The translations under genes and the position numbers were made by a program. From Alentia gelatinosa (lineage: Eukaryota; Annelida; Polychaeta; Phyllodocida; Polynoidae): DNA of 64,000 nt. Under the pieces are notes generated by a model. It was given only the letters and a program-made list of their open reading frames with translations, ran no database searches and was not told where the DNA came from. Shown in pieces: positions 12,132-63,096 of this stretch. Positions within the stretch are counted from its first letter, which is position 1. Every line of letters begins with the position of its first letter. Location: contig OX465580.1 in NCBI GenBank assembly GCA_950022655.1, positions 128,310,099 to 128,374,098 of the forward strand, given 5' to 3'.

Positions 12132-12412
12132 TTATCCTACCCCTCATATAAATCCCCATAGACTTAACATGGTGTGACTGTATGCCACGGTTATGGCATA
12201 AAATATTTATATGCCACTGGTAACATATGAAGTTAAAAATATGTAACAGGGTAGGATAAAATCTAAACATCACTCAATTTCATATAATTGTTTACATGCC
12301 ATTCGTTGTCTTCTGCTACAAATATCACTCAGCTCTGCTTCGTGATATCATTCCGCGAAGACAACTCATGCCATATAAACAATCATATGAAATTTCGTGA
12401 TGTTTCATGATA
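12132..12412 (-). mobile_element. HP1 element (tail then hairpin)
   Basis: The tail begins TTATCCTACCCC and closes with the inverted word GGGTAGGATAA at about 12250-12259, containing CATAGACTTAACATGG and the repeated word TGGCATA. A hairpin of about 135 bp follows, with arms CATCACTCAATTTCATAT and its near complement. The hairpin tip, read on the minus strand, is CACGAAGCAGAGCTGAGTG. Non-coding. Confidence 0.85.
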
Positions 12413-12518
12413 GTACCTAGAACGGGTGTACTTCACATCTCTTCCCCAGACTCATGTAATTCTGCTGTAGTACAAACGTCTCAGCGCAGGGTGCCATTTT
12501 AATAATCTCATGGATAAT

Positions 12519-12799
12519 ATCATGAAACATCACGAAATTTCATATGATTGTTTATATGACATGAGTTGTCTTCGCGGAATGATATCACGAAGCGGAGCTG
12601 AGTGATATCTGTAGCAGAAGACAACGAATGGCATGTAAACAATTATATGAAATTAAGTGATGTTTAGATTTTATTCTACCCTGTCATGCGTTTTTTACTT
12701 CATATGTCAAGAGTGGCATATACATATTTTATGGCATAACCGTGGCATACAGGCCCACCATGTTAAGTCTATGGAGGTTTATATGCGGGGTAGGATAAA
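12519..12799 (+). mobile_element. HP1 element (hairpin then tail)
   Basis: The hairpin has arms CATCACGAAATTTCATATG and its near complement, tip CACGAAGCGGAGCTGAGTG. The tail runs from ATTCTACCCTG to GGGGTAGGATAAA. It is inverted relative to the copy at 12132-12412, with a spacer of about 106 bp, so the pair forms a larger inverted repeat. Confidence 0.87.
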
Positions 12800-12859
12800 T
12801 GGCGTGATCCTACTTGCTGGCTACCTATGTTCTAGGTGAGATACTTCGTCAGCGGCTCA

Positions 12860-13083
12860 GCGGTGGGTGCTTCTGTCTCACCAAAATTTAAAATGAAATC
12901 TCTTGAGATTCTGTACCTCTTTGGGGGTAATTATCACCAACAATTGGAGGGAGAAAAACTGATCCCAGGGAAATGGACAATTCAGACAAGGAGAATGTGT
13001 TGTAGTACAGAATCTCAGCAGGATTTCTCTCGGGCACACGCCCTGTGAATTAGGTGAATCCCCTCATGTGAATTCCACTTTAA
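12860..13083 (-). mobile_element. TT2 element, partial copy
   Basis: It contains AGAATCTCAGCAGGATTTC and ends GTGAATTCCACTTTAAA, matching one half of TT2. The opposite end is missing near 12860. Confidence 0.65.
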
Positions 13084-13245
13084 ACCCATTACCTCTTAAT
13101 GAGTATTCATATAACACAATCCTTTTCACAGAGCCATTTGGTTGATCTTCTATTAATTACATAAACGTGCTTCTAACAGTGAGGAATACATCAGGGCGTC
13201 TTCCTACGTCCAATAGATTAAAGACGTTATCTCTAAAACAGCCTA

Positions 13246-13797
13246 CCGTAAAACCCCGGTTGTAAGCCGCCACGCACTTCAGCAAAATGCTCTAAGCCGA
13301 TTATGTGGGTATTTCAACTTAAGGAAAATCCCGGTTATAAGCCTATCTCCAACTTTGGGGGTCCTTATCCTCATTCCCCCAATAACCCCCCCCCCCCCCG
13401 ACCCTTACAACTTTTTTGATAGAATTTTCAGTTTCAATTAACTTTTGTATCAATATAGGATATCACATGGTATCTGAATGATTCACTTGTATATGAAGGT
13501 GAACGAGGCTAAGCAGAGACTCTTTAACCAACCAAGTTTTATCCAACCACGGAGAAATACAAGACCTCCATTGGAACGAAGAAATTACGCGAAATGTGGA
13601 AAAAAGAATTGACAATTGTATATCTCTGTTTTTGGTACTTCATGATTTGTACTGATTTTGGGGATTTTCAAAAATCAATTTTTGAAAGAAAAAAAAAACG
13701 GTTATAAGCCTACCCCCGGCTTTGGCAAAAATCCATATGCCGATTTTTTTTCTCAGAAATCTCTGAACAAAATCGGCTTATAAGCGGGATTTTACGG
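13246..13797. mobile_element. TA1 inverted-repeat element
   Basis: 552 bp with ends CCGTAAAACCCCGGTTGTAA and TAAGCGGGATTTTACGG, flanked by TA on both sides (13244-13245, 13798-13799). The words GTAAAACCCCG and GGCTTATAAGC are typical of TA-target pogo/Tc1-mariner-like non-autonomous elements (family knowledge; assignment is inference). It contains a poly-C run at about 13388-13399. Non-coding. Confidence 0.82.
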
Positions 13798-13799
13798 TA

Positions 13800-14133
13800 C
13801 ATCTAGGAGTCCGATAAGGTTTAATGAGATAAGGGATTTTAATAAATGCTGCATCCCATCAGACGAAAATTGGATACACTCTCACCGCGTGATTCATTCT
13901 CTGAGTCTGGTTTGAAGTTGGGAGGTTGCTGTTTGGGAAGCAGCCAGCAGCATGATTGGGTCATATCCCTGAAAGGGGTGAATCAGTCCACGTGAAATTG
14001 AAATTCACTGAACTCTGAAGTCGTTAGATCTACAGTTACATCACGTAAGAGCAGCCTCATTGTTCTCCGCCACACATGTAAATGAGCCGTCCTGAAGGAG
14101 GAGATACTCAAATGATGGACTATAGAGGAATCT
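13800..14133. other. Unassigned DNA
   Basis: No supported gene or repeat. Confidence 0.4.
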
Positions 14134-14165
14134 TATAAAAGTTTGGGTTCGAAACCCCTACTTCA
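14134..14165 (+). other. Pol III B-box-like word
   Basis: GGGTTCGAAACCCC looks like a tRNA T-arm and B box. No acceptable A box, anticodon arm or acceptor stem is visible upstream, so this is at most a remnant of a tRNA-derived SINE and may be chance. Confidence 0.25.
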
Positions 14166-14526
14166 TTCGTTTTAGTAGAGGAGCAAATGACCCAAAAATA
14201 ATGGGTCACAATGACACCCGAGAGTCTCCTGGCTGAAACTTGCCATGTTGGTCAATTTTTTAATTTTTTTTTATACTGTTTATTGGACGCAATTCAACAT
14301 ACAATGTTGGTTTTCAATCGCGACCACCTCTATGTCAGAATATTTTCTAAGTCTTACACAATTTCTCAATCATAAGAATTATGACCTCAGAATCTGAATC
14401 TGATGCTCATTTGTTCCACAAAGTGTAGCATCATGCTCGCGTCCATGGTAACAGAAGGAAAACATATTTTGATAATTACTGATGTATATTGTGATCCCTT
14501 TTTAAGGGCCTTTTGGGCACTTTGCT

Positions 14527-14795
14527 CCCCTACTATTTGAATCGCGTAGTAATTCACAAGGCCAAGCTGCGTGAATTACGTAGCGATTCAAACGAGATGG
14601 GATCGACCTCTGACCCTGAACTTGAATGGGTTACTGAATTCATCTCACCCTTTACATTGACTAATGGGCTAACATTTGTGACAAATGGGCTAACATTTGT
14701 GACATAATACCCCATTGAGTATCTAAAAAAAATACTTAACGGGTGTTAGATACCAATGTTAAGTCTATGGGGAAAAATACCAGGGGTGAGATAAA
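14527..14795 (+). mobile_element. HP5 element
   Basis: The hairpin has arms TATTTGAATCGCGTAGTAAT and the near complement, tip CACAAGGCCAAGCTGCGTG. The tail runs from TTCATCTCACCC to GGGGTGAGATAAA with CAATGTTAAGTCTATGG near its far end. The phrase GGGCTAACATTTGTGACA is tandemly duplicated in this copy. Non-coding. Confidence 0.82.
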
Positions 14796-14811
14796 GGACA
14801 AAACTCAAACA

Positions 14812-15518
14812 AGCAATTTATACACAATATTAACATGATTTCTATCTGAGTGACCGTATTCTCCGCGTAGTTGACGCGAAGTTAAACTCCCAGCGATAGC
14901 GATACAAGGAGAATACGGCCACACAGATCGAAATCATGGTAATATTGTATTTATCACCCACCTAGTGCGGAGTCTCCATGCTAAGCTTATGGAGCTTACA
15001 GATCTCTACTGAGTAGAATACGGACCTCCGGAAGCTTTTTGGCCACCTGACGGGCATTATAGGAACTAATTCATACAAACAAAGCATGGTGCTAGGGTCG
15101 ATTTTCTAATTATATACACGATTTTTTTCCTGATAATTACTTGAAAGGCGAGTAATAAATACAATATTACCATGATTTCGATCTTGTAGTTGACACTACG
15201 AAATACTCCTCGTTATCGCTCTAAGTATTACTATGCGTCAACTACGCGGAGAATACGGCCACTCAGATCGAAATCATGGTAAGATTGTGTATTTATAACT
15301 CACCTTTCGACTAATTATTAGGGAAACATATCTTGTTAATAATTAAAAATTCGATGTAAGCGCTGTGCATTGTTCATATAAATAGTTTCCACAATGCCAG
15401 TCAGGTGGCCGAAAAAGCCGTATTCTCCTAGTAAATACGGCTTTCCTTAGTTTACTTAGTAGCGATCTGGAGGCTCCATAGGCTTAGTATGGAGACTCCG
15501 TATCAGGTGGGTAATAAA
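14812..15518. mobile_element. HP7 composite: hairpin, tail, hairpin, tail
   Basis: A hairpin (about 14812-14946) abuts a tail whose ends are TTATCACCCACCT and GGCGAGTAATAAA. A second hairpin (about 15154-15290) follows, then a second tail from TTATAACTCACC to AGGTGGGTAATAAA. The two tails are inverted relative to each other around the second hairpin, giving a 571-bp foldback (14948-15518). CTCCATAGGCTTAGTATGG and its relative CCATGCTAAGCTTATGGAG mark both outer ends. Confidence 0.78.
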
Positions 15519-15667
15519 TGACAAGATGTACAAACTAAACGGACAATTAATCATTTATGCCAGGACAGTTTTTCTGTGGAATAGATGTCTTTTCAGATGC
15601 ACCTACAGTTTGGTAACTTCTGGATAATCTGTGTAACATACACTGCACCGTCATCGTGTTAACAGAG

Positions 15668-15770
15668 ATAGAATCAAGCTCTGATAGAAAAACTTGAATA
15701 GGTTTCTGAATATATCTCACCCCTCACATTGACTAATTGGCTAACATTTGTGACATAATCTGCACTATGT
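15668..15770 (+). mobile_element. HP5 element, fragment
   Basis: It matches the HP5 tail start (CAAGCTCTGATAGAAA, TATCTCACCCCTCACATT, GCTAACATTTGTGACATAAT). Both hairpin and far end are missing. Confidence 0.65.
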
Positions 15771-15817
15771 GTTTGTCCGAAATTAAGTCCATCCCCTGAC
15801 CTTTTGCCCTCTTATGG

Positions 15818-15922: not shown

Positions 15923-15945
15923 TCAACGACTCTCCTCTCCAATAT

Positions 15946-16215
15946 TATCATGAAATTTCATATGGTTGTTTATATGGCATGAGTTGTCTTCACGGAATGA
16001 TATCACGAAGCGGAGCTGAGTGATATCTGTAGCGGAAGACAACGAATGGCATGTAAACAATCATATGAAATTGATTGATGTTTAGATTTTATCCTACCCT
16101 CTCACATGTTTTTAACTCCATATGTCACCAGTGGCATATAAATATTTTATGGCATAACCGTGGCATACAGGCCCACCATGTTAAGTCTATGGAGATTTAT
16201 ATGAGGAGTAGGATA
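15946..16215 (+). mobile_element. HP1 element
   Basis: The hairpin tip CACGAAGCGGAGCTGAGTG is identical to that of 12519-12799. The tail runs from TTATCCTACCC to GGAGTAGGATAA and keeps GGCATAACCGTGGCATAC and CATGTTAAGTCTATGGAG. Non-coding. Confidence 0.86.
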
Positions 16216-16734
16216 ATAGGTAATATAGCACCACAATATTGAGCCATCTGATACCAATCTAACCCTACCTCCTTCCCCCCCGCATGACCCTTCTGAGTCG
16301 CGCGCTACCAAAAATACCTGGAAATGACACAAAACTGTTCCTAGCAATGATATCTCACATAGCAGTCGTTCTTATATCTTTACCAATTGCAATATAAGAA
16401 TGAATGACAATAGTGGCCCTTGTCAGAACAGCAAGACCTACAGGAGAATGTTTCGTTCTGACAGTATGGACCAGGACTTGATAAAACGTCATGTTTTTCA
16501 ACTGTTGGGTTTTATACCTGTCATTACTCCTAATGTTCATGGTTATTTGAAGTAACATATATGCTTGGACAGTATTTCTACTGTAACTCTTTCAAGACTT
16601 TCTCCTTGGTTTACTTCCTACTTTCCTGTCCCTGGCTAGCCTCCGATCACATTCCTTGCTTAATCTAAGCATAAATACCTCATGTAGAAGTCTACTTGAA
16701 AAAATAGTGAATACTGTCGCAGGCCAATACTGCC
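16216..16734. other. Unassigned DNA
   Basis: About 520 bp without a supported gene or repeat. Two short open frames on the minus strand have no recognisable features. Confidence 0.4.
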
Positions 16735-17480: not shown

Positions 17481-18493
17481 TTAAATGTCGTCTGCCAAAC
17501 TCCCTGATGGCGTCCGCGCCCACTGAGTCTGCGCTGTAAGGAGGACGGGTCAGAGGTCGGGGCCGCTGCCTTTTGAAGAGGAGAATATTTCATTGTCAGA
17601 GGCATTTGCGCACTTTCGATGGCTGTCGTCTGGCTTTTTGTAGCTGGACGACTCGGAGAGGCAAAAACCACGATAACCAAAGCACAAGCAGACCATAGAG
17701 GCCTTGGTTGTAGAAGGACGTCCATTTGCAGGCTGGCAGTTTGCTGGTATTAATGGGGAAGTGTTGGCAACAGTTAAATGAACAAGGGTCGTTTCATGAC
17801 AATTATACTCAGTCAACTGCAATAGAGGCTTTAACGACGTCCTTTCCGTCCTCTAACCGTTGAAGCAATGGCAGGTTATATTTCACCACTGGACATACTC
17901 GAGTTAAAGCCCCGTTCACACTATACTATATACCTACAAACAAAAGTGCCTTTATATAAGACAACATTTATCAAATCCTCTGTCTAGTCATGTCGTCGTG
18001 TTTTACTATTGATTTCTAAACTCGATGCTCACAGCTACATGTATCAATCTCCAAGTTAGTCCTAGAGTGGTGGAAACTTACTGTACTATACACCTATACC
18101 TCAAAATACTCCAAATACCAACCTCTGCTATGCAAATGGTAGCTGAGACGTACCACCATACTGTGCCGGTATGGCGCCATACCAGCTTACTTTGAAAGCT
18201 CGATCTCATTGATTAAGAAAATCAAGTGACCTATTTATGGCGTGATCAGAATTCAGACAAAAAAAATCAAACAGGAAATTAATAGATGATATTATGAGAA
18301 TATTAATACCAAAGAAATTGATTTTAAAACAGTTTAAATTTTATTTACGAAATCGCGGCTATGAACATCGTGTGTGGTGTGTAGCAGAAAACAACTTCCG
18401 CCCTCCCAAGCGAGTTTGATTTCCGTTTCGAAGTCGACTTATTTTGGTAAGTTTTTGAATATTTACAGATATTTAGAGGTGTATAGTACAAGT
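17481..18493. other. Unassigned DNA
   Basis: About 1 kb without a supported gene. A stretch around 18110-18210 (CCAAATACCAACCTCTGCTA, TTACTTTGAA) loosely resembles 58215-58310, suggesting an old dispersed repeat. Confidence 0.4.
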
Positions 18494-18636
18494 GAAACTT
18501 GTTAACCTAATCGGGACGGCTTATCGTACCTTGTTACTATCGGTATAATTATCGCATTCGCTCTGTGAGCTCATGCGATAATTACACCGATAGTAACGCG
18601 GTACGATAAGCCGTCCCGATTAGGTTAACTAGTTTC
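18494..18636. repeat. 143-bp near-perfect palindrome
   Basis: Arms start GAAACTTGTTAACCTAATC and end GATTAGGTTAACTAGTTTC. They remain complementary through CGGGACGGCTTATCGTACC and ATCGGT to a small central loop near 18565. It is probably a foldback element or a solitary hairpin of the HP type; no tail is recognised. Confidence 0.88.
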
Positions 18637-19001
18637 CCTAAAGTACTATATCATTTAAATTAACTTGTACCAGTTTAGAGGTGATGGTGTTGTATAGCTG
18701 ATAAGGTACATAAAGCTAATGGAAAGGCCCACGTGAAGAAAATTAGCCTCTTGTAAGGCTGACACGTTTTTGGCCACTTTATATGATGCAACAGCAAATG
18801 TACTACCTGTGATAAAACTGTTACTATACACAAAAGCATCAAAGAAAGTTTTGGAGGTCTTGCGACTAGCGATACCTGCCATGCTACTAGCAGTACCTAG
18901 CTTGTGCGTATCTCCGGTACTTCTATTTTCAAGTATGAACGGTTATATCTGTGAACCACTGCCCCTCACCGAGAAGTCATGCGACTAGTAGGGTAGAGTT
19001 A
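18637..19001. other. Unassigned DNA
   Basis: No supported gene. Words such as TGCGACTAGCGATACC recall the small hairpins at 20862-20965. Confidence 0.35.
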
Positions 19002-26580: not shown

Positions 26581-26731
26581 TGTTTATGGTGTGTATGTGA
26601 GGCGGGTAGACTGGTGTCTAGACAATCAGACACTAGGCAACGGCCTCCGTAGGTTCATGTAGGCGTGAGGAAGGTGTCTGTGGGATGATTTGTGAGTATG
26701 TGAGTGAAGATTGTAGAACTAGCAATACTAT

Positions 26732-27043
26732 GAAGAAACCAAACAAGAGTTAGTCGTGTTGTTGTTTATCCCACGACGGCAAGATCGCGTATTACTGCGC
26801 GAGGCAAAGCCGAGAGCAGTAATATGTGATCTTACCGGAGTGCGATGAACAATAACACTGCTAATTCGAGTTTGGTTAAGAATTTATCCTACCCCGCCCG
26901 TCTAAATTACTTCTACATTAACAAATGACGTCATTTGTCAAGTGTATCCCACTAGAGCGATATTTTTCATTTTTCTGAACTCCAGACCTAATACAGTGAC
27001 CCAATGTTAAGCCTATGGAGTTTTTTATTAGGGGTAGGATAAA
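26732..27043 (+). mobile_element. HP2 element
   Basis: The hairpin has arms GAAACCAAACAAGAGTTAG and its near complement, tip GCGCGAGGCAAAGCCGAGAGC. The tail runs from TTTATCCTACCCCG to GGGGTAGGATAAA and contains AATGACGTCATTTGTC (a CRE-like palindrome) and CAATGTTAAGCCTATGGAG. Non-coding. Confidence 0.9.
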
Positions 27044-28696: not shown

Positions 28697-29128
28697 TTTA
28701 TCTCTCCTCGGTATTTTTCTACATAGGCTTAACTTTAGGAACTCGTACTCCATGGCCATGAAGGTCTTGTACCCAATACTCAATGGCTATTGGGTGATTC
28801 ATTTTATCCATAAATAATGTTATGCGGGAGGGTGGTTGTGGCCAACTAGATTCTAGGTCAACTTTCGACTGTAGAACCGTCCCAAGGCGTTATAAATATT
28901 ATGTAAGGAGGTCAGGGTCAAGGTCGGGGTTTGCTGCGAATATAGTCATTGGCTACTAAGTCTACTCTATTCCTTATATGGCAGTTAGTATAATGGGACA
29001 ACTCCATGTAGACGGGGTTTGCAATCCACCTCATTTGACCACAGAGTAATTCACTCAGATTCGCTTCGTGAATTACTCTGCAGTTAAACTCGGTGTAGTA
29101 CGGACCAAGCTATTTTCATCTCATGGGT
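28697..29128 (-). mobile_element. HP6 element with an internal insertion
   Basis: The tail end TTATCTCTCC with CATAGGCTTAACTTTAGG and AATGGCTATTGGGTGATTCA matches the complement of the HP6 copy at 55605-55886. The hairpin lies at about 28985-29128, tip (minus strand) CACGAAGCGAATCTGAGTG. About 120 bp of unrelated sequence separates tail and hairpin. Confidence 0.7.
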
Positions 29129-29295
29129 TTACTTCTAATTATCACACCTGTAAGTAAGGTGCACGGGGAGGGGTAAGGCAGGCGGTGGCAGTGGAGATAA
29201 ACAGGGAGGGGTAGGATACAGGGACTGAGGCCAGTCTATCAATAACCTCTCCTGAGTCTATGCATCGTATCTGAGCGTATCCCACCCTTGACCTG

Positions 29296-31980: not shown

Positions 31981-32477
31981 TATGTAGCCACTGTGAATTG
32001 TAGAATATGCCTGTAATGACAGCAGATATGTGTTCTGGTCTATGCTACATTAGAGAGTGCCCGGTTGTGTCATTTCCGCTCCAGTCGCCCTGTCTGTCGA
32101 TGCTGTATTTTATATCTCTCGGATGTGTGCCTGTTGCATATCCATCATTAGCTAATTACCAAACCAATTAAACCCGGCATATTAACACTCGTAGGAACTA
32201 CGTGCGCCTGTATGAGCATAGTGGAAGTGATAACAGCTTTAATGGGTACCTCGCTATCTATACATGTATCCATAGTGTGAAATTGTATTTAGTCAAATCA
32301 ACATTATATGTTCACCTTAATGTAATGGGATAAAAACCTGATGCCCTATAGAAATGTACAGCTGAATTCATAAGCATATCAGATCCGCCAGCGGGTTTTA
32401 TAATAAATACAGCTCATTTTGTTATCTTTGCTCCATAATTCAATTTCAGCACATGTCTTCATCCCCTGTAGTGCTAT
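31981..32477. other. Unassigned DNA
   Basis: No supported gene or repeat over about 500 bp. Confidence 0.4.
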
Positions 32478-32789
32478 GGAGAAACCAAACAAGAGTTAGT
32501 CTTGTTGTTGTTTATCGCACGACGGCAAGATCGCGTATTACTGCGCGAGGTGAAGCTGAGAGCAGTAATACGCGATCTTGCCAGTGTGCGATGAACAATA
32601 ACACGACTAACTCGAGTTTGGTTTAGAATTTATCCTACCCCGCCCGTCTAAATTACTTCTACATTAACAAATGACGTCATTTGTCAAGTGTATCCCACTA
32701 GAGCGATATTTTTCATTTTTCTGAACTCCAGATTGAATACAGTGACCCAATGTTAAGCCTGTGGAGTTTTTTATTAGGGGTAGGATAAA
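32478..32789 (+). mobile_element. HP2 element
   Basis: Very similar to 26732-27043 over its whole length, tip GCGCGAGGTGAAGCTGAGAG. The tail runs from TTTATCCTACCCCG to GGGGTAGGATAAA and includes AATGACGTCATTTGTC. The 70-codon open frame on the minus strand across it is not a gene. Confidence 0.9.
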
Positions 32790-33134: not shown

Positions 33135-33409
33135 CATATGAAGAGACGTCACGAGTTTGACTCTGAGTTTATTTATGTTACGCATTTTGTTGCCTCCGTA
33201 ATTTCACGAGTGGAAAACAAGTGACATTACGAAGCCAACAAAATGAGTGACATAAACAAACTCAAACTCAAACGAGTGGCGTCTAGATTTTATCCTACCC
33301 CGTTTCCACATATTTTCAGCATTCAAAAGTAGTGACATAAAAACACACACCTGTGACATAAAGAAATCCCATGTTAAGCCTATGGAGTCTTTTATTAGGG
33401 GTAGGATAA
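33135..33409 (+). mobile_element. HP3 element
   Basis: The hairpin has arms GACGTCACGAGTTTGACTC and its near complement, tip CACGAGTGGAAAACAAGTG. The tail runs from TTTATCCTACCCCG to GGGGTAGGATAA with CATGTTAAGCCTATGGAG. The inverted relative is at 39266-39552. Confidence 0.87.
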
Positions 33410-39265: not shown

Positions 39266-39552
39266 TTATCTTACCCCTAATAAAAAAAAAGCCATAGGCT
39301 TAACATGGGATTTTTTTTATGTCACGGTTAGTGACATAAAGTGTTGTTTATGCCACTACTTTCTGATACTGAAAAAATATGGAAACGGGGTAGGATAAAA
39401 TCTAGACGCCACTCGTTTGAGTTTGAGCTTATTTATGCCACTCATTTTGTTGGCTCCGTAATGACACTCGTCTTCGACTCGTGAAATTACGGGGCCAACA
39501 AAATGCGTGGCATAAATAAACTCAGACTTAAACTCGTGACGTCTCTTCATAT
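39266..39552 (-). mobile_element. HP3 element (tail then hairpin)
   Basis: The tail starts TTATCTTACCCC, with CATAGGCTTAACATGGG, and closes with GGGGTAGGATAAA at about 39389-39401. The hairpin follows, tip on the minus strand CACGAGTCGAAGACGAGTG. It is the inverted counterpart of 33135-33409. Confidence 0.86.
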
Positions 39553-42500: not shown

Positions 42501-44035
42501 ACATGTTAGTTTAATGAAAGGAAAATGATGATACTTCGATTTATGCGAATTTGATTCCTCTTGCCTTCTATATTGGGGTCAGGGTCCCATGCCTACCTGT
42601 TCATCTACCCCACCCCTCCTTACCGGAATCATTTCCTGTTTTAGGCGTTAGAGATAGGCTAGGCTTATAGGACACAGAGTGATTGCTTGATTGCTAGATC
42701 CGGCCATCACTCCTGAATTTTTATTTTTTAAAGCTTTTATTTATACTGGAGGAAGGGTTAGGCGAACTAGCACCTATCTTCCACCCTCTCCAGTTTTGTT
42801 CTGCTTTGGTATGTCCTTGCCCATCTAGTGGGCCTACATGACGAGGTTTACACAATAAGATAATGTTAAGTACGATTTTGTATCACAACAGGGGTAAAAC
42901 AATACATTTCCCAACAATTGAGATACGATTGAGGTAACAAGTTCCCATTTGAGCAAGATTTAGGATTTGACTAGGGTATACATTCCATGGTGATAATCTA
43001 ACTAGAGTTGCTACGATATATTTGTGTTAACTCAGAGTAGGCAATTTCGGCCCCGTTAGACGAAATTGTAAGATAGCACCTCTGTAGTCGGGGGACAACC
43101 ACTATTTTCTGCTGTCAAAATCTATAGACTTCTCTATACTCGTGAGGCAAGACTGAAACCCTTTTATGGCATACCAAAAAAAAGGTTTTGATAAGATCCA
43201 TTGATAACTGGACCCACCACCTTGTGTTCTGTTTGGCATCGGGGGGCAAGATGACACCCCGATGGCAAGTAGCTATGTGCCCTATATAAGGCAGATAAGA
43301 AATGTTCACCTGGTACTACTAATCACCCCTCCAAGCCTGTGTTCTCCTCTACTGGAGATTAAGAGCATATGTTCTTTACTACTGAAATAGTTAAGGTATA
43401 TGCACCTAATAGGTCTGATTACTACGATGCAGTAATTCAAATATCTAGTATCTAATACATGTTTTTTTTATCACACCTTGTGCAACAGCTTTTTCTTCTG
43501 ATCGGGACATGGAAGGTACATGACGGATGTATTTTGTCAATTCTTTTAGATATTCTTCTTTTCTCTGGATGAAAATGAGAAAAAGTGAGTGATAAAAGCT
43601 ACTATCACGAATCTAGCCTTTCTCACATGTATGTGTATAGAGCCTTCTATTTGAGAACACACATGTTTTCTGGTTTTCATATCTAAGTCATCTTGCTCTG
43701 GGATGAGTGTAAAGAGACAAGAAACTCATGGTAAAACTTTGAAAGTCGGTTGAATTTCGTAAGAACAAAGAGCCACAGTAGAGCTTTTGTCCCGTGAATG
43801 GAGGGTGCCATCTCGCATATGCACTTTCAGCCATATCTGGTGACTGCTTCATGTATTAGCAATTGCTCAGTCCCCTATAGCCTAGGGCAGAATTGTGTCC
43901 TCTCTTTGTGAATGTCCATAATGAAAGAACACGTCTACTTACAGCGCCTCTCCAGACAGTGTAGATCCATATTATAATGACTGACGTCTGGTTAATAGAA
44001 AACATAAATGTCTATTCTTCGTATCAAGATAACGA
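39553..44035. other. Long AT-rich stretch, mostly single-copy-looking
   Basis: About 4.5 kb with no supported gene. It contains short TA/CATA repeats at 39870-39905, an isolated segment like an HP7 end near 39565 (GGAGTCTCCATAGG), the 45-bp motif at about 41925-41962 also seen at 19680, and a T-rich tract with TTTATACTGGAGG at 42716-42755. Open frames are all under 80 codons. Confidence 0.45.
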
Positions 44036-44332
44036 AGTCATACTATCGTAAAACTGGATGAGTTTTAATCTTGTCCACCATATACCACGACTGGAGTTTG
44101 GCATAGTGAAAGCCTCGTCAGGAGCCAAAATCCCAGGAGTGGAATGCGGTGCCCAAGATTAACACGAATCAGGTTCTGATTTTGTCCTACCCCGTCTCCT
44201 CGATTTTGGAATATTACGTGATACAAATTCTGTTTGCCACTAGTGGCATATAAAACTCCGTATGCCAGTCAGCGTGGCATACGGAAACTCAATGTTAAGC
44301 CTATGGGATTCTATATTAGGGGTAGGATAAAT
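44036..44332 (+). mobile_element. HP4 element, copy 1
   Basis: An imperfect hairpin (TTTAATCTTGTCCACC against GGTGCCCAAGATTAA) is followed by a tail from TTGTCCTACCCCG to GGGGTAGGATAAA with the repeated word GCATAC and CAATGTTAAGCCTATGGG. The hairpin apex here is shortened relative to copy 2. Confidence 0.75.
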
Positions 44333-44359
44333 AACTGTCTCTTCTTCTTATCATGATAA

Positions 44360-44777
44360 CGTAGTCACAATATCGTAGAACTGGATGAATTTTAATCTTG
44401 GCCACCATATGCCACGACTGGAGTTTGAAATAGTGATTTCACGAGGTGAAGCCTCGTGAAGTCAGGGGCTAAAATTCCAGGAGTAGAATGCGGTGCCCAA
44501 GATTAAAACAAATCAGGTTCTGATTTTATCCTGTGGCATACGGTGTGGCATACGGAAACTCAATGTTAAGCCTATGGATTTCCTTGTGTGTCATTTAACT
44601 TTTTTGACAATATTCACTTTTTCTGTTTTTATTTTAGACTGAATTACCCTACTGAACTGTCTTATTTCATGTAGGTGGTCTATACTAGTGGCATATAGAA
44701 TTCCGTATGCCAGTCAGTGTGACATACGGAAACTCAATGTTAAGCCTATGGGATTTTATATTAGGAGTAGAATAATA
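44360..44777 (+). mobile_element. HP4 element, copy 2, rearranged
   Basis: Its hairpin, tip CACGAGGTGAAGCCTCGTG, starts with an offset of about 327 bp from copy 1, and flanking words are also shared, so the two look tandemly duplicated. The tail is broken: part of it (to about 44577), then about 100 bp matching the LINE relic, then a second tail ending GGAGTAGAATAA. Confidence 0.72.
44577..44680 (-). mobile_element. LINE fragment inside HP4
   Basis: GTGTGTCATTTAACTTTTTT and ATATTC-CTTTTTCTG resemble 45638-45720 of the LINE relic below at about 85-90% by eye. A small piece of the retroelement, or of the same source, lies in the HP4 tail. Confidence 0.65.
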
Positions 44778-45108: not shown

Positions 45109-46119
45109 TCACTTTTTAAGAATCTTGCTTGGCAAGTTTAATAATGAGATGTGCCTAGAGTTATCTTTCTTTTGCGAATTTCCACTTTTTGGTATAGGTA
45201 CCACTTTTGCATTCTTCCAATTATTTGGAAAGTATTCTTCTTCTACTGAAATATTTACCTAGATAGGTGAATTGACAGATTACACTCTTTATATTTTCTA
45301 TAATTAACTTTGCATCAACATCTTCAATTCCACTTGCCTTATTCGGATCTGTTGACTATAAGTTATCCGAAACATCTAACATGGTATATTCTATTAAAAA
45401 AATCCTAGTCAATTCCTTTCTTTATTTTCGTTGGGTTTCGCACAATTCTTTGAATAGTCAATCCCATTCATTTTATTCAAATGTTCTTGCCCGATGGTTG
45501 CGGAGAATCTGCTTTAAACATTTGGTATATCTTTTGTCTGTATTCGTCTCCCATCTTCTATTAACTCACAAGGTAAAGATTCATTCTCTGGTTGCAATAA
45601 ACTATTAATGACGGCCAAAAACTTCCTAGGATTTCTTTGTGTGTCATTTAACTTTTTTTTACAATATTCTCTTTTTTCTGTTTTATTTCATACTGAATTT
45701 CCCGAGTGAACTGATTTCATATCGAATTTCAGTTCCTTTACAAGGTTTCTCTTGTGTGTAATCAAATTGTGCAACTGCCTCGACATCCAGGTGGGTTTCT
45801 GATCTAAAGAATTTATTTCCTTTATCGGACAATATTCCTTTAGATATGCTCGCACATGCCATACAAATTCTCTCCACAGCTCATCCATATTTCTACAGTT
45901 ATGATAAGTTTGCCAATTTATCAAAATCCAGGTTTTTTTATACGAGCTGCCTTTAAAGGTAACTTGTGTCCTTTTCCGTTCACGTTTTTTTCTTACTACC
46001 AAAGTTGGGTGATGGTCACTTATACATTCACTAAGGACTTCCACACGACTTACGGGGTATTTAAGGGATCTATAATCGTCTCCCCCTGTATAGTCGAGTA
46101 ATGTCGTTGATAAGCTGCT
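45109..46119 (-). pseudogene. Non-LTR retrotransposon (LINE) relic, endonuclease end and partial RT
   Basis: On the minus strand, an open stretch just below 46119 contains SDHHPTLV (about 46020-45997), the conserved end of an APE-type endonuclease. A linker with a Trp-rich segment and the phrase TWMSRQLHNLI follows. Beyond the stop near 45688, NPRKFW, then DPNKASG (near 45340), then NAKVVPIPKSGN and SLLNLPSK are recognisable early reverse-transcriptase words, in shifted frames. The catalytic YADD region is not seen. The clade cannot be fixed; a CR1/L2/Jockey-like layout is possible. Stops and frameshifts mean it is inactive. Confidence 0.85.
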
Positions 46120-49723: not shown

Positions 49724-50250
49724 GAGACCCAGGGATAATGTGGAACAACTTTATTATCCATCGTATACAAAGCCCCCATTGAAAATGTATGGGGATTCAG
49801 TAAACTACGACCCATTGTATAACACCTGTCAGATACCATAACTGTGGTATACGGATTCAAACCTGTGGTATACGGCCTCAAAACCATGGTATACGGGGAA
49901 AATAGCCCCTTTGTGCTGTAGAGCAAAGAAATAGTCCCTGTTGTTATACCCGCTAATATGGCAATTACTGGGTTTAATTCATACGAAAAGATGGATAATA
50001 AATACAACAAACGATGGTTATGTGGACAGGCGGCTCTGTCAACCACTCGAGGTTGACGTCGTAATACACTCGCTAGCGCTCGTGTATTACTACGCGTCAA
50101 CCTCTCGTGGTTTACAACCGCCTGTCCATAAAACCATCGATTATTGTTTATTTATTCAGCACCTATAGACAACCTATCACGGCTCGGGCTGTCTAAGCGA
50201 ACGAGCTTGAATATTATTAGAAGATAACCCCTGTACAAGGTCTCCTTGTA
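49724..50250 (-). mobile_element. FB3 element interrupted by HP8
   Basis: GAGACCCAGGGATAATGT (from 49724) and, after HP8, GACAACCTATCACGG and TAAGCGAACGAGCTTGAATA are the complement of the middle of FB3 (22668-22886). The uninterrupted FB3 reads through this site as GACTTTATTCAAC. The outer ends of this copy are degraded. Confidence 0.72.
49750..50156 (-). mobile_element. HP8 element (tail then hairpin)
   Basis: The tail is bounded by TTTATTATCCATC (49750) and GATGGATAATAAA (about 49989-50001), with three GTGGTATACGG-type words. The hairpin of about 150 bp (arms ACAGGCGG...CCGCCTGT, GAGGTTGACG...CGTCAACC) has the tip CACTCGCTAGCGCTCGTG. It is inserted in FB3. The 127-codon minus-strand open frame across the tail is not a gene. 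Confidence 0.85.
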
Positions 50251-51238: not shown

Positions 51239-51517
51239 TATCAAGAAACGTCACGAAATTTCATACAATTATTTATATGGCATGAGTTGTATTCGCGGAA
51301 ATATCACGAAGCAGGGCTGAGTGATATCTGTAGTGGAAGACAACGAACGCCATGTAAACAATTGTATGAAATTAAGTGACTTTTAGATTTTATCCTACCC
51401 GGTAACATGTTTTTAACTTCATATTTCACCTGTGGCATATAAATTTTATATGGCATAACCGTGGCATACAGTCACTCCATGTTAAGTCTATGGAGATTTA
51501 TATGAGGGGTAGGATAG
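51239..51517 (+). mobile_element. HP1 element
   Basis: The hairpin has arms GTCACGAAATTTCATACAAT and its near complement, tip CACGAAGCAGGGCTGAGTG. The tail runs from TTATCCTACCCG to GGGGTAGGATA, with CATGTTAAGTCTATGGAG. Non-coding. Confidence 0.86.
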
Positions 51518-52220
51518 CCCTATTCTCCATTGTGTGACCCTCTCGTATAATAGCCACACTATAACTCACTGGCGATGAACAAAACTTTAGGGTTTAGATC
51601 AGTTATGGTTGAATAACATAAAGTGAGGCTAATTCTGAGAAAATTGATAATTTTAGAACATTTATGCAATGTCACATCATTACTAGTGGTATACATACAC
51701 ACAGTACACAGTATTCTCGCTAGGTGGCTTCATTGAGATTATAGGAATGTATGGGTTGCATTGATGTACGTCTTTAGCACGGGAGGCAGGCCAGTGGATT
51801 CTCAAGGCTCTAGGCCTAGTTCGTTAAGAATTCTTCTCAATAGAGCGTAGTGCGAGTACAGAATAAGACTTAGAGAATGTGAGATCTTATGAGAGGGGTG
51901 GTTAGATAAGCGGCCGCTTTGACCCAGTAGCAGTACCTGTGTGTTACTCTCCTACCAGATCTTTCATGCTGTTTGGAGAGTGTGTTTAGTCATAACCTCG
52001 AAGGCAATTTACCTTGTACTGTATTTTGTAGAATAAAACCATCATAAAGCCAGAATTAATTATCAATTTGCTACGCTATGAGTTATACTAGTATTTCTGC
52101 TTTTGGAGCCTACATAAAACAACACTAGTTGATTTTAAGCGCACCCCGAGTGAACCCATGTGGGATTTAACCCGACCAACCGCTATATTTCAGACAGGGG
52201 TCGGTTGCCAAACTATTGTA
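51518..52220. other. Unassigned DNA
   Basis: About 700 bp without a supported gene. GATTTAACCCGACCA (about 52174) is shared with 19668. Confidence 0.4.
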
Positions 52221-52598
52221 TACTTAGATAGTAAACTATGGCTTTGTGGACAGGCAGTCTAAACCACGATAGGTTGACGTGTAGTAATACGCGAGCGCTT
52301 TGTTTACAGAGCCACCTGTTCACAAAATCATCATTTGTCGTATTTATTATCCATCTTTTTGAATAAATCAAACCCAGTTATTGCCATATTATAGGGAATA
52401 ATGATAGGGACTATTTCTTTGCTCTGTAGCACAAAGGGATTATTTTCCCGTATTCCATGACTTTGAGGCTGTATGCCACAGATTTAAATCCGTATACCAC
52501 AGTTATGGTATCTGACAGGTTTTATATAATTGGTCTTGGTTTATTGAGTCCCTATACATTTTCAATGGGGAATTTGTATACGATGGATGATGAAATAT
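52221..52598 (+). mobile_element. HP8 element (hairpin then tail)
   Basis: The hairpin is partly decayed (TTTGTGGACAGGCAG against CCACCTGTTCACAAA, tip region TAATACGCGAGCGC). The tail runs from TTTATTATCCATC to CGATGGATGATGAAATA. It is inverted relative to 49750-50156, about 2 kb away. Confidence 0.8.
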
Positions 52599-53166: not shown

Positions 53167-53465
53167 GGGGGTGGAATAACTTTTGTTTACTGCCCAGGTT
53201 GAAGTTACTGCCCAGTTTGACGTTTACTGCCCAGGTTGACGTTTACTGCACAGGTTGACATTCAGAGATATTCGGTTTTATCGATATTAGCCGACAATTG
53301 AAGTTATATAGGAATAGGGAAACCACGTACCAGTGGAAATAAGTCAGAGTTACTCGGTAAGGCTTGGAAAAATTACTGCCCGCGGCTATGCCTTGGGCAG
53401 TAATTTTTTCAAGCCTTACCTCGTAACTTTGACTTATTCCCACCGGAACATAGTTTCCCTCTATT
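53167..53465. repeat. Tandem repeat next to a 153-bp hairpin
   Basis: Four tandem units of about 19-24 bp, TTTACTGCCCAGGTTGACG, cover 53189-53262. A near-perfect hairpin at 53313-53465 follows, with arms AATAGGGAAACC, AAGTCAGAGTTACTCGGTAA and their complements, tip CCCGCGGCTATGCCTTGGG. GGGGTGGAATAA at 53167 and TTATTCACC at the right resemble HP tail ends, so it may be a ninth HP family. Confidence 0.75.
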
Positions 53466-54479
53466 ATTCACCACTGGGTGGCGATTTTCCATATGGTTGA
53501 GTTATGTTCGCACCAATGAGAGTATACAAAAGACATCGCAGCAGAGTTACACAATCACCCACGCTACATTTACTCATATAGAGATTATCGTACCTGGTCT
53601 TCAGGAGTGCACCTAATCAACATTCACGCGTTACACAGTTCTCCGGATCTTGTTTGATATTTCCTAATTATGTAAAGGGAAAATCCTGGTCCTATATCCT
53701 ATCTATTCCAAAACATTGTGCGATCATGCAACAAATTTAGAACAATAATCATCAGGTGGAAACAGAAATGGTCACTGATTTTCTCTCCTGCCTTATGAAA
53801 TATGGTACCAACGACTGACTTCTGCATCCATCAACCAAATTAAAGCACATTTAATTAATCAGTGATGCTCTGCCTTTTGCCTCCAAGAGTCAGTAAGCGG
53901 CCATCACATTTTTGCAGTGCAGTTCACCGAGTATGAACCACCAACCCTTCACATGGAGCACCATCAACCAACTTGTGTAATGTGAAAATTATCGGTGTGT
54001 TTTTATTCGACAGGTGGAAAAGTTGCATTTAATAGTGTGAGTGAGTGGAGACCGAGGCGGAAGCTAATCTAACCTGGGCTCAGATATACTAGGAGCAAAT
54101 TGTGTGTTCATCATTGATGAATGAGCGTGCACTTATTAATGAATAACAATAAAAAGGTTTGGGTCACATTCAGTCAATGGATACTTTTCTATAACCCACT
54201 TACATTCAGTCAACTTGCCATTTCTGCAACTGCCTGAGTCTAGGATCCAAACATATCAAGTACCAGTTGGTCAATGAGGTATTTCAGTCTTGAATGATTG
54301 GTCATGGTCAGCTGGGCATGCCTCTAAACCCAGAGACACTGGCCCTCTGCTCCTTTCCCAATATCACAGTGGACAGCACGCACATAGTGAAAGGATAGTT
54401 TTCATGCAACACGCTGGAAGTCTATGTCACCAGTCTAATCTCTAGGCGATGTATGTATATGTGCAAGCACGCTCTAACA
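53466..54479. other. Unassigned DNA with a TT10 right-end fragment
   Basis: 53715-53800 matches the right side of TT10 (ACAATAATCATCAGGTGGAA, then GGTCACTGATTTTCTCTCC). The remainder shows no supported gene. Confidence 0.45.
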
Positions 54480-55350: not shown

Positions 55351-55604
55351 ACGTTGTCACTTATAGTAAATCGTATTTACTGCCAACCGTCATCTCCCTC
55401 ACTCATTGATCTCGGCATCCCGTCTCGTCTAATAACATCAACCCTGACGTGGTGAGACCGTCGTAAACTGACCACGTGGTACACCGTATCCCCGCAGAGC
55501 AAATGGTTTCTGACAACAGGCAGCTCGGTAATCTCATCTCATATGGATTTCTTTGTTCTATCAATGTGACTCATCAGTCTTAAAATGATAGAGTTAGATG
55601 GAGA

Positions 55605-55886
55605 CTCACGAGATGAATATAACTTGGTCCGTACTCCAACGAATTGGACCGCGGAGTAATTCAAGAATCGAAGCTGAGTGAATTACTCTGCGGTCAAATG
55701 AGGTGGAGTGCAGACCTAGTTATTTTCATCGAGTGGGTTTCTGATTTCATTTCACCCCGTATAACATTATGAATTGATAAAATGAATCACCCAATTAGCC
55801 ATTGAGTATCGGGTACACTACCTTCACGGCTGTGGAATATGAGTTTCAAATGTTAAATCTATGGAGAAAAATACTGGGGTAAGATA
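55605..55886 (+). mobile_element. HP6 element
   Basis: The hairpin (CTTGGTCCGTACTCCA...TGGAGTGCAGACCTAG) has inner arms GACCGCGGAGTAATTCA and their complement, tip CAAGAATCGAAGCTGAGTG. The tail runs from TTTCATTTCACCCCG to GGGGTAAGATAA, with CAAATGTTAAATCTATGGAG. Non-coding. Confidence 0.84.
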
Positions 55887-56128
55887 ATTTTCGATATGTG
55901 CAACCTTTAGGTCTGTTTCTATCTGCTGAATTTTGGCTTCCGATGAATTTGTGGGCCACCACCGACAGATTCATGTTTGGTATACAGTGAAGTTGGTACC
56001 GTGGAAATTCGGTACCGGTGAAATCGATACCATCCGAATTCGGTACTGGTGAAATAGATACCTCTGCGGTCGTGGGCTATGTCGCCCGTGTGGCGGTCGA
56101 GTCGGCCGTTTTTGGTGTGGCAGTGTTA

Positions 56129-56552: not shown

Positions 56553-56555
56553 TTA

Positions 56556-56880
56556 AGGGTTATGGTTAGGCTAGGGCAGGATTAGGGTTAGGGTTAGGGT
56601 TAGGGTTGGGTCAGGGTCAGGGTCAGGGTTAGGATGAGGGTCAGTGTAAGGGTCAAGATCAGGATTAAGGTTAGGGTCAGTGTGAGGGTCAGGACCAGGG
56701 TTAGGGTAGGGTCATGGCTAGGGTCAGGGTTAGAGTTATAGGATGAGGGTAGAGTCAAGGTAAGGGTCAAGGTAGGATTAGGGTCAGGGTTCAGGTTAGG
56801 GTAAGGGTATGGTCAGAGTTAGGGTTAGGATTAGGGTTAAGGTTAGGGTAGGGTAAAGGTTAGGGTTAGGGTTATGGTAG
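56556..56880. repeat. Interstitial telomere-like tract (TTAGGG)n, degenerate
   Basis: Perfect TTAGGG runs at about 56585-56608 pass into variants GTCAGGG, TAGGGTAGGG and AAGGTTAGGG over about 325 bp. A further scatter lies at 57018-57065. TTAGGG is the ancestral animal telomere repeat, so this is an internal relic or array rather than a chromosome end. It begins within a few bases of the TT3 right end. Confidence 0.88.
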
Positions 56881-60119: not shown

Positions 60120-60139
60120 GGGGGGGGGGGGGGGGGCGG

Positions 60140-60362: not shown

Positions 60363-60730
60363 GGTATTATGTACCTTCTATATCAACATATTGAACACTG
60401 GTGTAAAGTTCTGGACTCTGCATCCCTATGATGACCAATTATATTGGTTTCTAAGTGAAGGGATTAGTCATCTAAATTGTCTGTATTCAGTAGTGCCAAA
60501 ATGACTGCATTAAGACAGTTGTCATTTTGTAGCAGATTCTCACTGTCTTGTTATTGACCGTACAGCGTCCATGTAATGAATGGCATGTTTACCCTCATTA
60601 TCAATTGCTCTAGTTCCCGGTTTAGCCACACGGTGGCAGGATGCTCTAACATGACACCTGAGTTGTTAGTGACATATGCGAGAGACCGCAACAAGACTAT
60701 AGAGGAAACCCATGAAAGTTTAGGGTCTGA
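60363..60730. other. Unassigned DNA
   Basis: No supported feature over about 370 bp. Confidence 0.4.
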
Positions 60731-60993
60731 GCTCGTATCCCATCGAGTTTGAATCACCTAGTAATTCACAAGGCGAAGCCACGTGAATTACTATGTGATT
60801 CAAATGAGATGGGATCGAGCTCTGACCAAAAACTTGAATGGGTTTCTGAATTTATCTCACCCTTAACATTGACTAATGAGCTAACATTTGTGACATTATC
60901 GCCCATTGGATATATTTCTTAAATATCTAATGGGCGTTAGATACGAGTTCCCAATGTTAAGTCTATGGAGAAAAAATATTTGGGGTGAGATAA
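60731..60993 (+). mobile_element. HP5 element
   Basis: The hairpin has arms ATCCCATCGAGTTTGAATCA and its near complement, tip CACAAGGCGAAGCCACGTG. The tail runs from TTTATCTCACCC to GGGGTGAGATAA, with CAATGTTAAGTCTATGGAG. The most complete HP5 copy in the window. Non-coding. Confidence 0.87.
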
Positions 60994-61193
60994 TGGTCAA
61001 TCCTCATTGGCTGTGGCTTCAAGAGCTAATCACTGTCCAAAGCTTGCAAGCTCACCCTATAGCAAGATGCCACCTGCTGTCTTTATAAAAACCGAAAAAT
61101 CTGTCATTAAATGCAGTTGGGTTCTTGACTCATAGCAGTAGCTCATACATCTGAGTTAGAGTCCTTACTCCCTTACTCTTATACTGGAGACAC

Positions 61194-61400
61194 ACCAAGC
61201 GATAAACGCAGCACTTTCCGGAATCGCCAACACAAAATGATGAGTATATGAGCTATAATTTCATATTTCACCTGACTATTGCCTATGATACGCTAAAGTA
61301 TTGGTGGGAGATATTACTATGAAATAGTATCGCACATACATGCTATTTCATGTTGTCAATTCCGGAGATCGCTGCCGTTTCTCGCTTGGTGTATCCCCAG
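61194..61400. mobile_element. FB4 inverted-repeat element
   Basis: About 207 bp with ends CTGGAGACACACCAAGCGA and TCGCTTGGTGTATCCCCAG. Inner complementarity continues through TCCGGAATCGCC and its near match. The single-copy family assignment is by inverted ends only. Non-coding. Confidence 0.7.
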
Positions 61401-61591
61401 CTTGAAGGTCTACCCCTAGCTACTCTAGGCCTCTATGTTTTACACAGGTTTACGTCAAGGAAACATGGCAATTTTACGATAGGTATGGAGGTACTTCTAC
61501 GCTCATATGGAAAACCTTCAAGACAGGTTGCATTCTGGTCGTCTTTCATACAGATCTCTGCTGGTATGCAATCACATAAGTATTAGGGTTA

Positions 61592-62038
61592 AGGCGGGCG
61601 TCCACTAACCACGCCAAGGCTACGACAAGTGCCGACAAGAAAGTTCCAATAAGCGCTTGTTGCAGCCTTGTCGTAAGAAGGGGGGGGGGGGGTCTGCGAC
61701 AGTGGTGTCGGGGCGTGTCGTAGACGTCGCTGGTTGCCGTAAAAAGGCGTCCATGGTACCGACACACTACGACAGTGATATCGAGGAAACCACAACACTC
61801 CACGACAAAGGTCTAGTCGTGGCAAAAATCGGACATGTTCGATATTGTCGTAGCCTTGTCGGAAGGCCCCCGACAAGCTTCCAGTCGCAGCCTGTCGTGG
61901 CCTTGTCGTAGACTCTTGTCGGGAACTAGGGTCCACCAACCGCAACAAGGCTACGACACGCTTTCCAATCGTAGGCCTGTCATGGACCTTGTCGGAAGGC
62001 CATTGTCGTAGCCTTGTCGTGGTTGGTGGACGCCCCCC
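61592..62038. mobile_element. TT3 inverted-repeat element
   Basis: 447 bp with ends AGGCGGGCGTCCACTAACCA and GGTTGGTGGACGCCCCCC, TTA on the left (61589-61591) and TTG on the right. A 14-base G run at 61679-61692 replaces a shorter G tract seen in the other copies. Non-coding. Confidence 0.85.
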
Positions 62039-62783
62039 TTGAGACTATAATAAAGCATCGCTTGACAAAAACTTCCCTGGATTCTTATGGCTGGTCATAT
62101 GTATGTGTATGGAAAGGTATATGGATGTAGAAATATAGGGATAAACAACTGGAAGTATGCAGGTAGGGAACAAAGAAACACATTCAGAAAAGTCCATATG
62201 ACATATGAGAAGAAACAAAATGCGGGTGACAGATTTGTAAATGCTGCTCCAATTCCCATCCCATCACCCAGTAGACCGATCCTACCTGTACCCTACTCAT
62301 GATTGAGACCTACGGTAATTATAGGTTCAGAGATGGTAGTTGTAGGTAAAGACTTGTACCCACTGCGCTCCCGATACACCCCGATGGGCCTTATGATTGA
62401 CTTTCTGATTCAAAATTACAAATTTGATTCATTGGCTTTTATGTTTGGTATTTCTAATCATAGTGTATTTGGATGTCTATGGGGGCTAATGGGAGGCAGT
62501 GGGTGAGGAGTTTAACATTCTTTGGATATATCCTTGAATGTCTGGAGACCTTTTAAACCTTTCTTTAAGGTACACCAGCAAGACAAACATTAGTTTTCTA
62601 CCAATTTTCTTGTGTCATTTTTTTTTTACATTAGATACAAAATAATTGACTTCCATTTGAAACTGGGAATAATTCGGGAGGTATATATCTAGGTCTTTAC
62701 TGTACAATAAAGAAGAAATTACTTTATGGACCTACTTACTGATCACCACTGAAGTTTATGAACGTTTATTTTTCTATCAAATA
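62039..62783. other. Unassigned DNA
   Basis: About 745 bp. Two adjoining plus-strand frames of about 70 codons (62087-62302, 62303-62506) have no recognisable domain or splice context. Confidence 0.35.
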
Positions 62784-63096
62784 CTTTATTCTACCCCTAA
62801 TAAAAAACTCCATAGGCTTAACATTGGGTCACTGTATTCAGTCTGGAGTTCAGAAAAATGAAAAATATCGCTCTAGTGGGATACACTTGACAAATGACGT
62901 CATTTGTTAATGTAGAAGTAATTTAGACGGGCGGGGTAGGATAAATTCTAAACCAAACTCGAGTTAGTCGTGTTATTGTTCATCGCACTTCAGCAAGATC
63001 GTGTATTACTGCTCTTGGCTTGGCCTCGCGCAGTAATATGTGATCTTGCCGTCGTGCGATAAACAACAACACAACTAACTCTTGTTTGGTTTCTCC
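62784..63096 (-). mobile_element. HP2 element (tail then hairpin)
   Basis: It starts TTTATTCTACCCC, with CATAGGCTTAACATTGGG and AATGACGTCATTTGTT. The inner end is GGGGTAGGATAAA at about 62932-62944. The hairpin is at 62950-63096, tip on the minus strand GCGCGAGGCCAAGCCAAGAGC. Same family as 26732 and 32478, inverted. Confidence 0.9.

Follow-up and report, generated by a model that had tools for sequence, protein, structure and literature searches.

The 64,000 bp of the Alentia gelatinosa genome analysed here (contig OX465580.1, C2:128310099-128374098, referred to as the window; the genome assembly spans 1.234 Gb in 101 contigs) contain many repeats in which a tail with short inverted ends stands beside a long hairpin. 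The locus raises the question of what kind of mobile element these repeats are and which enzyme moves them. A preliminary description had recognized about 20 copies, sorted them into eight families (HP1 to HP8), and likened their layout to that of Helentron/HINE rolling-circle elements. The family was confirmed, as HP1-HP8 elements and fragments were located, most of them with their ends. The explanation that, taken as a whole, best accounts for our results, to which we give a probability of roughly 0.8, is that HP1-HP8 are non-autonomous Cryptons, moved in trans by a DUF3504 tyrosine recombinase (YR) through single-strand exchange at a folded site.

The families share one plan

With up to two mismatches allowed, TTATCCTACCCC occurs 34 times in the window, where 6.6 occurrences are expected, and none of 100 shuffled sequences reached this number. 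Throughout the genome the pattern TTATCCTACCCC-N80..110-GGGGTAGGATAA was found at 4076 exact places, and the reversed pattern used as a control at none. We fetched 24 stretches (L001-L024) surrounding the copies listed first on contig C1, which together with the window amount to 276.5 kb and 52 tails. Read from tail to hairpin, the plan is 5'-TTATCCTACCCC ... CCATAGRCTTAACAT ... GGGGTAGGATAA, followed by 5 nt, a hairpin of about 140 nt, and a terminal 7 nt (CTTGATA, CTCCATA, and CTACTAA are examples). The 3' end thus lies 7 nt past the hairpin arm, and HP1-4 elements that carry no insertion are 271-314 bp long. As had been stated, the hairpin is found beyond one and the same end of the tail. 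The accompanying statement that the families cannot be aligned with one another proved true of the hairpin arms, which differ between families, but not of the elements as a whole: HP1 and HP3 align from end to end with 59-66% identity and are therefore related, the 5' motif CCATAGRCTTAACAT is common to the families, and an apex described below is also shared. By eye, pairing of CCTA with TAGG at the 5' end is possible in some families and not in others.

The plan extends beyond the TTATCCTACCCC ends. In a wider search, only the outer tetranucleotides were fixed (TNAT at the start and ATNA before the hairpin); 423 hairpins were taken, and a matching inverted word was present upstream of 113 of them, or 108 once merged. 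Since these 108 rows include some due to chance or to tandem repeats, a filtered set (n = 68) was used afterwards. This search uncovered the same plan with the ends TTATCCTACCCC, TTATCTCACCCC, TTATTATATACC, TTATTATCCATC, TTATTATCCACC, and TTATTACCCACC. The asymmetric terminal inverted repeat at the 3' end of HP2 plus its hairpin (window positions 32475-32641) had 1687 candidate copies in the genome, and the best 40, which were scored, spanned the whole unit with 96-100% identity, which fits a recent spread.

Insertion is precise and leaves no target duplication

The 3' end was recognizable in 43 of the 52 tails but not in the other nine, and the 5' flank was read in 48 oriented copies; the target counts include a nested pair in L007 twice. 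The base preceding TTATCC (-1) was T in 32 copies, A in 10, G in 3, and C in 3. After the 3' end, the counts were T23 G13 A7 C0 at +1, T37 C4 G2 at +2, A36 C7 at +3, and T33 C7 A2 G1 at +4. The joined flanks were then compared with the fetched DNA, at most five spanning matches per element being considered. Six elements (L006_4951, L010_7659, L014_4917, L017_5020, L021_8495, and the window copy at 12132) had clear element-free paralogues in which no base was lost or duplicated, as in the empty site CTGTT|GTATTAATG; a seventh empty site, for L010_6921, was weaker. The six clear sites show that insertion is precise and occurs between W and DTAY without duplication of the target. The earlier proposal of a single mobile plan with asymmetric inverted ends and no target duplication is therefore borne out, with further support from the satellite site of L038 described below. 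The TT target that had been suggested for checking is not what was found, because the target is W|DTAY and 20 of 43 copies have G or A at +1. Both a Tc1/mariner-like duplication of TA and a duplication of TTAT are ruled out by the empty sites.

The first four nucleotides of the element are TTAT in 70 of 72 rows, and in 62 of 64 when the eight array rows (L007, L018) are set aside. A count of 60 of 60 was not used, because its rows had been pre-selected for TTAT; no such selection applies to the 72 rows. The TTAT at the 5' end and the DTAT after the 3' end resemble a repeat of 3-4 bp, the first base of which differs in 20 of 43 cases. Elements also stand flush against one another in 8 of 67 cases, compared with 87 of 20000 random positions (0.4%). 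We judge that about six of the eight rows are real and that two are opposite-strand readings of tandem pairs. The TTAT of an element can itself serve as a target, which would explain why elements come to lie flush, head to tail.

Parts of the ends were also seen as arrays. The 62 bp with which the HP1 5' end begins, comprising the inverted repeat plus CCATAGACTTAACAT, form a head-to-tail, satellite-like array in L007 (about 8670-9540), and a single tail with a damaged hairpin comes after it. Units starting with TTACTATATACCC, spaced by about 42 bp in L002 (2839-3128) and also present in L022 (2157), look like a short satellite derived from the 5' end of a Crypton.

Most of the hairpins share an apex

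The arms differ between families, but a common apex, TCACTCGGCTTCGCCTCGTGA, was matched with at most 8 mismatches in 21 positions by 56 of 73 hairpins and by 2 of 73 shuffled ones. On the other strand the apex reads stem-GA-stem-GNA-stem-GA-stem. A blind search for hairpin tips in which a triloop is closed by 3-4 bp and followed by an unpaired 2x2 loop and a stem of 8 bp returned 80 strand-wise cases, equal to 40 structures, and 31 of the 40, many of which are related copies, had the GA/GA arrangement. The apex of L038, for example, is CCT-GA-GCTC-GTA-GAGC-GA-AGG. In DNA, both tandem G.A pairs and GNA loops have an unusually high stability. In two copies (L023 4873 and L022 224, in a minus-strand reading), the apex points the opposite way from that of sister copies with no change in the direction of the outer arms, as if the tip had undergone a flip-flop. 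We judge the flip to be genuine in L022 and L023 among five flagged rows, the others being elements read in reverse.

Crypton genes carry the same kind of ends

A genome-wide profile search for the Crypton domain DUF3504 (PF12012) gave 719 first-look candidates; 150 were scored, and all 150 were over the cut-off, as were none in 14 control genomes. Two loci, L038 and L040, exceeded the cut-off for both PF12012 and PF00589. R, HxxR, and Y motifs were seen by eye in the recombinase translations, and R-H-R-Y is named in PMC3212892. L038 and L039 are copies of a 3.35-kb Crypton with 94% identity over 3368 bp. The L038 element (835-4188) consists of a 5' end TTATTATATACCC, the recombinase gene, GGGTATATAATAA, a hairpin, and CTCTAA. 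The YR-encoding elements have the plan of TTAT...ACCC at the 5' end, an inverted copy near the 3' end, and then a long hairpin. L038 lies in a satellite with the empty unit GGTATTACTAG, inserted at GGTA|TTAC, and the flanks of L039 are ACA and ATAC. Because their recombinase frames are open, we infer that L038-type copies are probably autonomous.

A second Crypton family, represented by L041, provides the link to the window. Its 3' end is GGGGGTGGGATAA-ATACG-hairpin-CATTTAA|TTAT, and its hairpin matches two of the three HP2 copies in the window, at 26895-26761 (73% over 137 bp, E 1.3e-13) and at 32641-32507 (71%, E 2e-9). It also matches, at 75-82%, five copies of a further TTATCCTACCCC family, the fifth, termed HP9 (L009, L014, L017, L021, L022). 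Genome-wide, the L041 hairpin had 1492 candidates, of which 40 were scored; a YR domain precedes each of the five best (98-100%) by 896-897 bp (C12:44369758, C8:7327221, C12:41924300, C1:87129879, and C8:40625604). Among the 40 scored of 644 candidates for the L038 hairpin, six are on the same strand as, and 0.7-1.9 kb downstream of, listed YR domains, three of them at 1518-1525 bp. The hairpin of L039 itself fell outside the best 40 of the 644, so that further L038-type hairpins lie beyond those scored. L036 and L037 showed weak scattered words and nothing more, and a scan of viral contigs for CCATAGRCTTAACATKGG found nothing.

We conclude that HP1-HP8 very probably are non-autonomous members of the Crypton superfamily. 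The suggestion that a distinct lineage is possible was right, and ends and a hairpin of this kind flank tyrosine-recombinase genes. The proposed search for autonomous relatives had a divided outcome: no Rep/helicase gene with the same ends was found, and the relatives with the same kind of ends are YR-encoding Cryptons.

A proposed folded recombination site and its alternatives

How such an element might be moved is suggested by joining its two ends. HP1-HP8 would be mobilized in trans by the DUF3504 YR encoded in larger copies whose ends follow this plan. The element would move as a circle in which both ends meet, with the junction GGGGTAGGATAA-AATCT-(hairpin)-CTTGATA|TTATCCTACCCC, and the asymmetric inverted repeats would become the base of a single hairpin. 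The folded site would then comprise a 12-bp duplex (YR arm 1), a 5x7-nt, largely unpaired spacer, and the base of the hairpin (YR arm 2), and the apex with its tandem G.A mismatches and GNA triloop would lie on the strand 5'-GGGGTAGGATAA|TATCAAG...-3'. The YR may cut this strand after ...ATAA and the target after the matching RTAH; one strand would be exchanged, and replication would complete the insertion. The predicted DNA folds of four reconstituted junctions follow the plan of 12 bp, 5x7 loop, and stem, most cleanly for HP2 and HP3 when the TNC strand is folded; the spacer is partly paired in the predicted folds of HP1, of L038, and of GNA strands.

The junctions bear on how many strands are exchanged. 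That TTAT is found at the 5' end in 62 of 64 rows while the +1 base after the 3' end is other than T in 20 of 43 points to an exchange of a single strand, as at attC sites, insofar as this can be read from the sequences. Alternatively, HP1-HP8 may be non-autonomous Cryptons in which both strands are exchanged, as in conventional tyrosine recombination of double-stranded sites, and the hairpin may be an accessory or a binding array. YR partners exist for this process as well, the TTAT/DTAT similarity looks like a short overlap, and fungal Cryptons have terminal direct repeats of 4-6 bp (PMC3212892); a bias in mismatch repair could, moreover, mimic the junction statistics of a one-strand exchange. 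If the two strands of a mismatched overlap segregated at random, however, a non-T host base would be expected at the 5' end in about 15 of 64 copies, and it was seen in one (CTAT). A 7-mer resembling the spacer stands before TTAT in 4 of 72 rows, and in all four it is the terminus of the hairpin arm of another element. We regard the exchange of both strands as a possible but rather doubtful account, and lean somewhat toward a folded, single-strand-exchange mechanism on the strength of the modelled folds and the junction counts.

Two further explanations concern the identity of the elements. If they were non-autonomous Helentron/Helitron2 elements (HINEs), a Rep-helicase would move them by rolling-circle replication from the asymmetric inverted repeats and the 3' hairpin. 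Published descriptions of Helitron2 do fit in several respects, namely a 5' inverted repeat with its partner directly upstream of a 3' hairpin, a 5' T, and the lack of target duplication (PMC3627910, PMC5148889). The target in our elements, however, is not TT, the hairpin of about 140 nt compares with a 3' region of 20-30 bp, and the same kind of ends flank YR genes. Furthermore, a search for Helitron_like_N (PF14214) gave three first-look candidates and just one match in 1.23 Gb, on C7, and the 10 kb around it contain no 5' motif, apex, or paired ends, only scattered words with two mismatches. PIF1 (PF05970) had nine matches in the genome. A helicase fragment in L033, at about 1 kb from a short but complete HP4 copy that contains no helicase, was also rejected as a partner. 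Two sites on C7, separated by about 13 kb (C7:36809911-36825621), hold pieces of a Helitron helicase, and the sole PF14214 match lies beside one of them. The Helentron/HINE assignment is accordingly abandoned as very improbable. Even less credible is the view that two independent elements are involved, a tail that is a miniature inverted-repeat transposable element with 12-bp inverted ends and a hairpin repeat placed beside it by chance or insertion preference. The tail alone does have matching inverted ends, and L009 4890 is a tail without an adjoining hairpin. Nevertheless, most of the copies seen have the hairpin on one particular side, joined through 5 nt, tail and hairpin are missing together at the empty sites, and the best 40 of the 1687 HP2 3' units span the whole unit.

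Several observations weigh against the explanation that we favour, Cryptons moved through a folded site. The YR-encoding elements retrieved include none whose ends are exactly TTATCCTACCCC, the nearest 3' end being GGGGGTGGGATAA, and for HP1 and HP3-HP8 the connection to Cryptons consists of a common plan, target, and apex rather than of homology to a YR-encoding copy. The YR domains at C6:64591736 and C9:31539215, with frames of 358-359 amino acids, had no L041-type hairpin among the best 40 of 1492, and the YR locus L040 had no such hairpin in the 4 kb read. Regarding the folded site, 17 of the 73 hairpins have no apex match and the apex of L039 is fully paired. The GNA (G.A) strand is predicted to be the stabler in 52 of 68 copies (mean 2.3 kcal/mol over the 68), copies that are related and so not independent, and the other strand is slightly stabler for the HP3 element at 39266. 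A fixed 5/7-nt rule gives DTAY in just 35 of 68 elements (background 3.5%), partly because of slips in hairpin alignment. Finally, the variable top of attC sites had no role in strand choice in vivo (PMC2727003), so that the apex need not matter in that way.

Elements and other features of the window

Four HP1 elements are present. The one on the plus strand (12132..12412) extends from a 5' TTATCCTACCCC to a 3' CATGATA|GTAC and has empty sites in related repeats. The remaining three are on the minus strand: a copy inverted relative to the first (12518..12798), one in which the outer hairpin arm is partly deleted (15946..16216), and one with the 5' end CTAT (51239..51517). HP2 is represented at 26729..27042 and 32475..32788, both on the minus strand and with hairpins homologous to that of the YR-encoding Crypton L041, and at 62786..63099 on the plus strand. 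HP3 elements occupy 33137..33409 (minus strand) and 39266..39551 (plus strand), the latter with its 3' end flush with an HP7-type 5' end, TTATTACCC, at 39552. Adjacent pairs are of two kinds, flush head-to-tail pairs such as that at 39551/39552 and the HP4 pair. The HP4 elements are copy J (44044..44330) and copy K, which has an internal insertion (44371..44775), both on the minus strand; the pair (44004-44775) has about 40 bp of shared flank and looks like a head-to-tail segmental duplication rather than a flush insertion.

HP5, with TTATCTCACCCC ends, is found on the minus strand as an element at 60698..60993, an interrupted copy at 14118..14794 (outer end at 14118, 5' end at 14794), and fragments at 285..461 and 15665..15760. 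HP6 elements are at 55594..55887 (minus strand) and at 28698..29138 (plus strand); in the latter, about 150 bp are inserted between the tail and the hairpin. On the plus strand, an HP7 hairpin (14820..14950) ends with ATTGTAT flush with the 5' end at 14951 of an HP7 element (14951..15292), which begins with TTATCACCCACC, ends with GTGTAT, and is followed flush by TTATAACTCACC. HP8 comprises an element on the plus strand (49751..50151; 5' TTATTATCCATC, 3' GATGGATAATAA followed by the hairpin) and a fragment on the minus strand (52217..52385). The region at 53290..53520 (minus strand) contains a hairpin that belongs to the group with TTATTATATACC ends and is 91% identical over 176 bp to L001 2527-2702.

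The window has other features as well. A hairpin of 169 bp (18482-18650) is 87% self-complementary, with no relative in the DNA compared and no convincing inverted-repeat partner. Long GC-rich tandem arrays, with 17-bp units of the ACCGGGCCCGGGATCAA type and GGCA arrays, occupy 3210-8731 and are unlike most of the window, and an interstitial telomere-like array of degenerate AGGGTT repeats lies at 56556-56878. An open frame of 143 amino acids (45688-46119) resembles a fragment of a non-LTR retrotransposon. Scans of the window for tRNA genes and for Rfam families at the gathering threshold gave no match.

Comparison with known systems

The elements resemble animal Cryptons (CryptonA and CryptonI) in their DUF3504-type YR and in that non-autonomous copies outnumber autonomous ones (PMC3212892). 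They differ in that no terminal repeats were found in animal Cryptons, as far as the available part of that report goes, whereas we observed asymmetric inverted repeats, a long 3' hairpin, an apex, and the target W|DTAY. The same source calls Crypton boundaries difficult to characterize; with ends known exactly, a rule for the target, and a structural site, this unclear class would become annotatable and testable. Among the open-access papers on Cryptons that were listed, none described a hairpin terminus or a folded site of recombination in its title or at the start of its abstract; the search covered neither Repbase reports nor most subscription journals, where an earlier description may exist.

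Helitron2, Helentrons, and HINEs share with these elements the asymmetric terminal inverted repeats, the 3' hairpin, and the usual absence of target duplication (PMC3627910, PMC4067079), but not the Rep-helicase, the TT or TTTT|T/C target, or the short hairpin. As the layout can pass for Helitron2, some hairpin repeats of animals that have been filed as Helentron-like may be Cryptons. The strand-biased, circularizing integrative elements (SEs) of Gammaproteobacteria are bacterial, have a median size of 15.7 kb and four core genes, and are described without mention of a long terminal hairpin in the abstract of PMC10214605.

A close functional parallel may be the integron. The usual tyrosine-recombinase site combines 11-13 bp arms with a 6-8 bp spacer (PMC3212892). 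In attC sites, which are also acted upon by a tyrosine recombinase, IntI, one strand folds into a duplex, an unpaired central spacer, a stem, and a variable top, and one strand is exchanged; recombination depends on the unpaired spacer, and in one attC site the binding of the integrase in vitro was affected by a GAA triplet in the top, as cited there (PMC2727003). We see about an even chance that animal Cryptons are integron-like in this sense, the circle folding one strand so that the hairpin arms, the 5x7-nt spacer, and the G.A/GNA apex form the recombinase site for a single-strand exchange into a target of 4-5 bp. Integrons use the IntI integrase and attI, whereas here a DUF3504 recombinase and a genomic target of 4-5 bp would be used, and the solved integrase IntI4 has only a weak sequence match (E 0.002) to the recombinase; the single-stranded substrate has been tested in integrons and is inferred here. 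The elements would thus work like integrons without being members of that group. If the folded site is real, Cryptons would be a class of eukaryotic transposons that use folded single-stranded recombination sites, and the principle of the bacterial integron would be at work in animal genomes as well.

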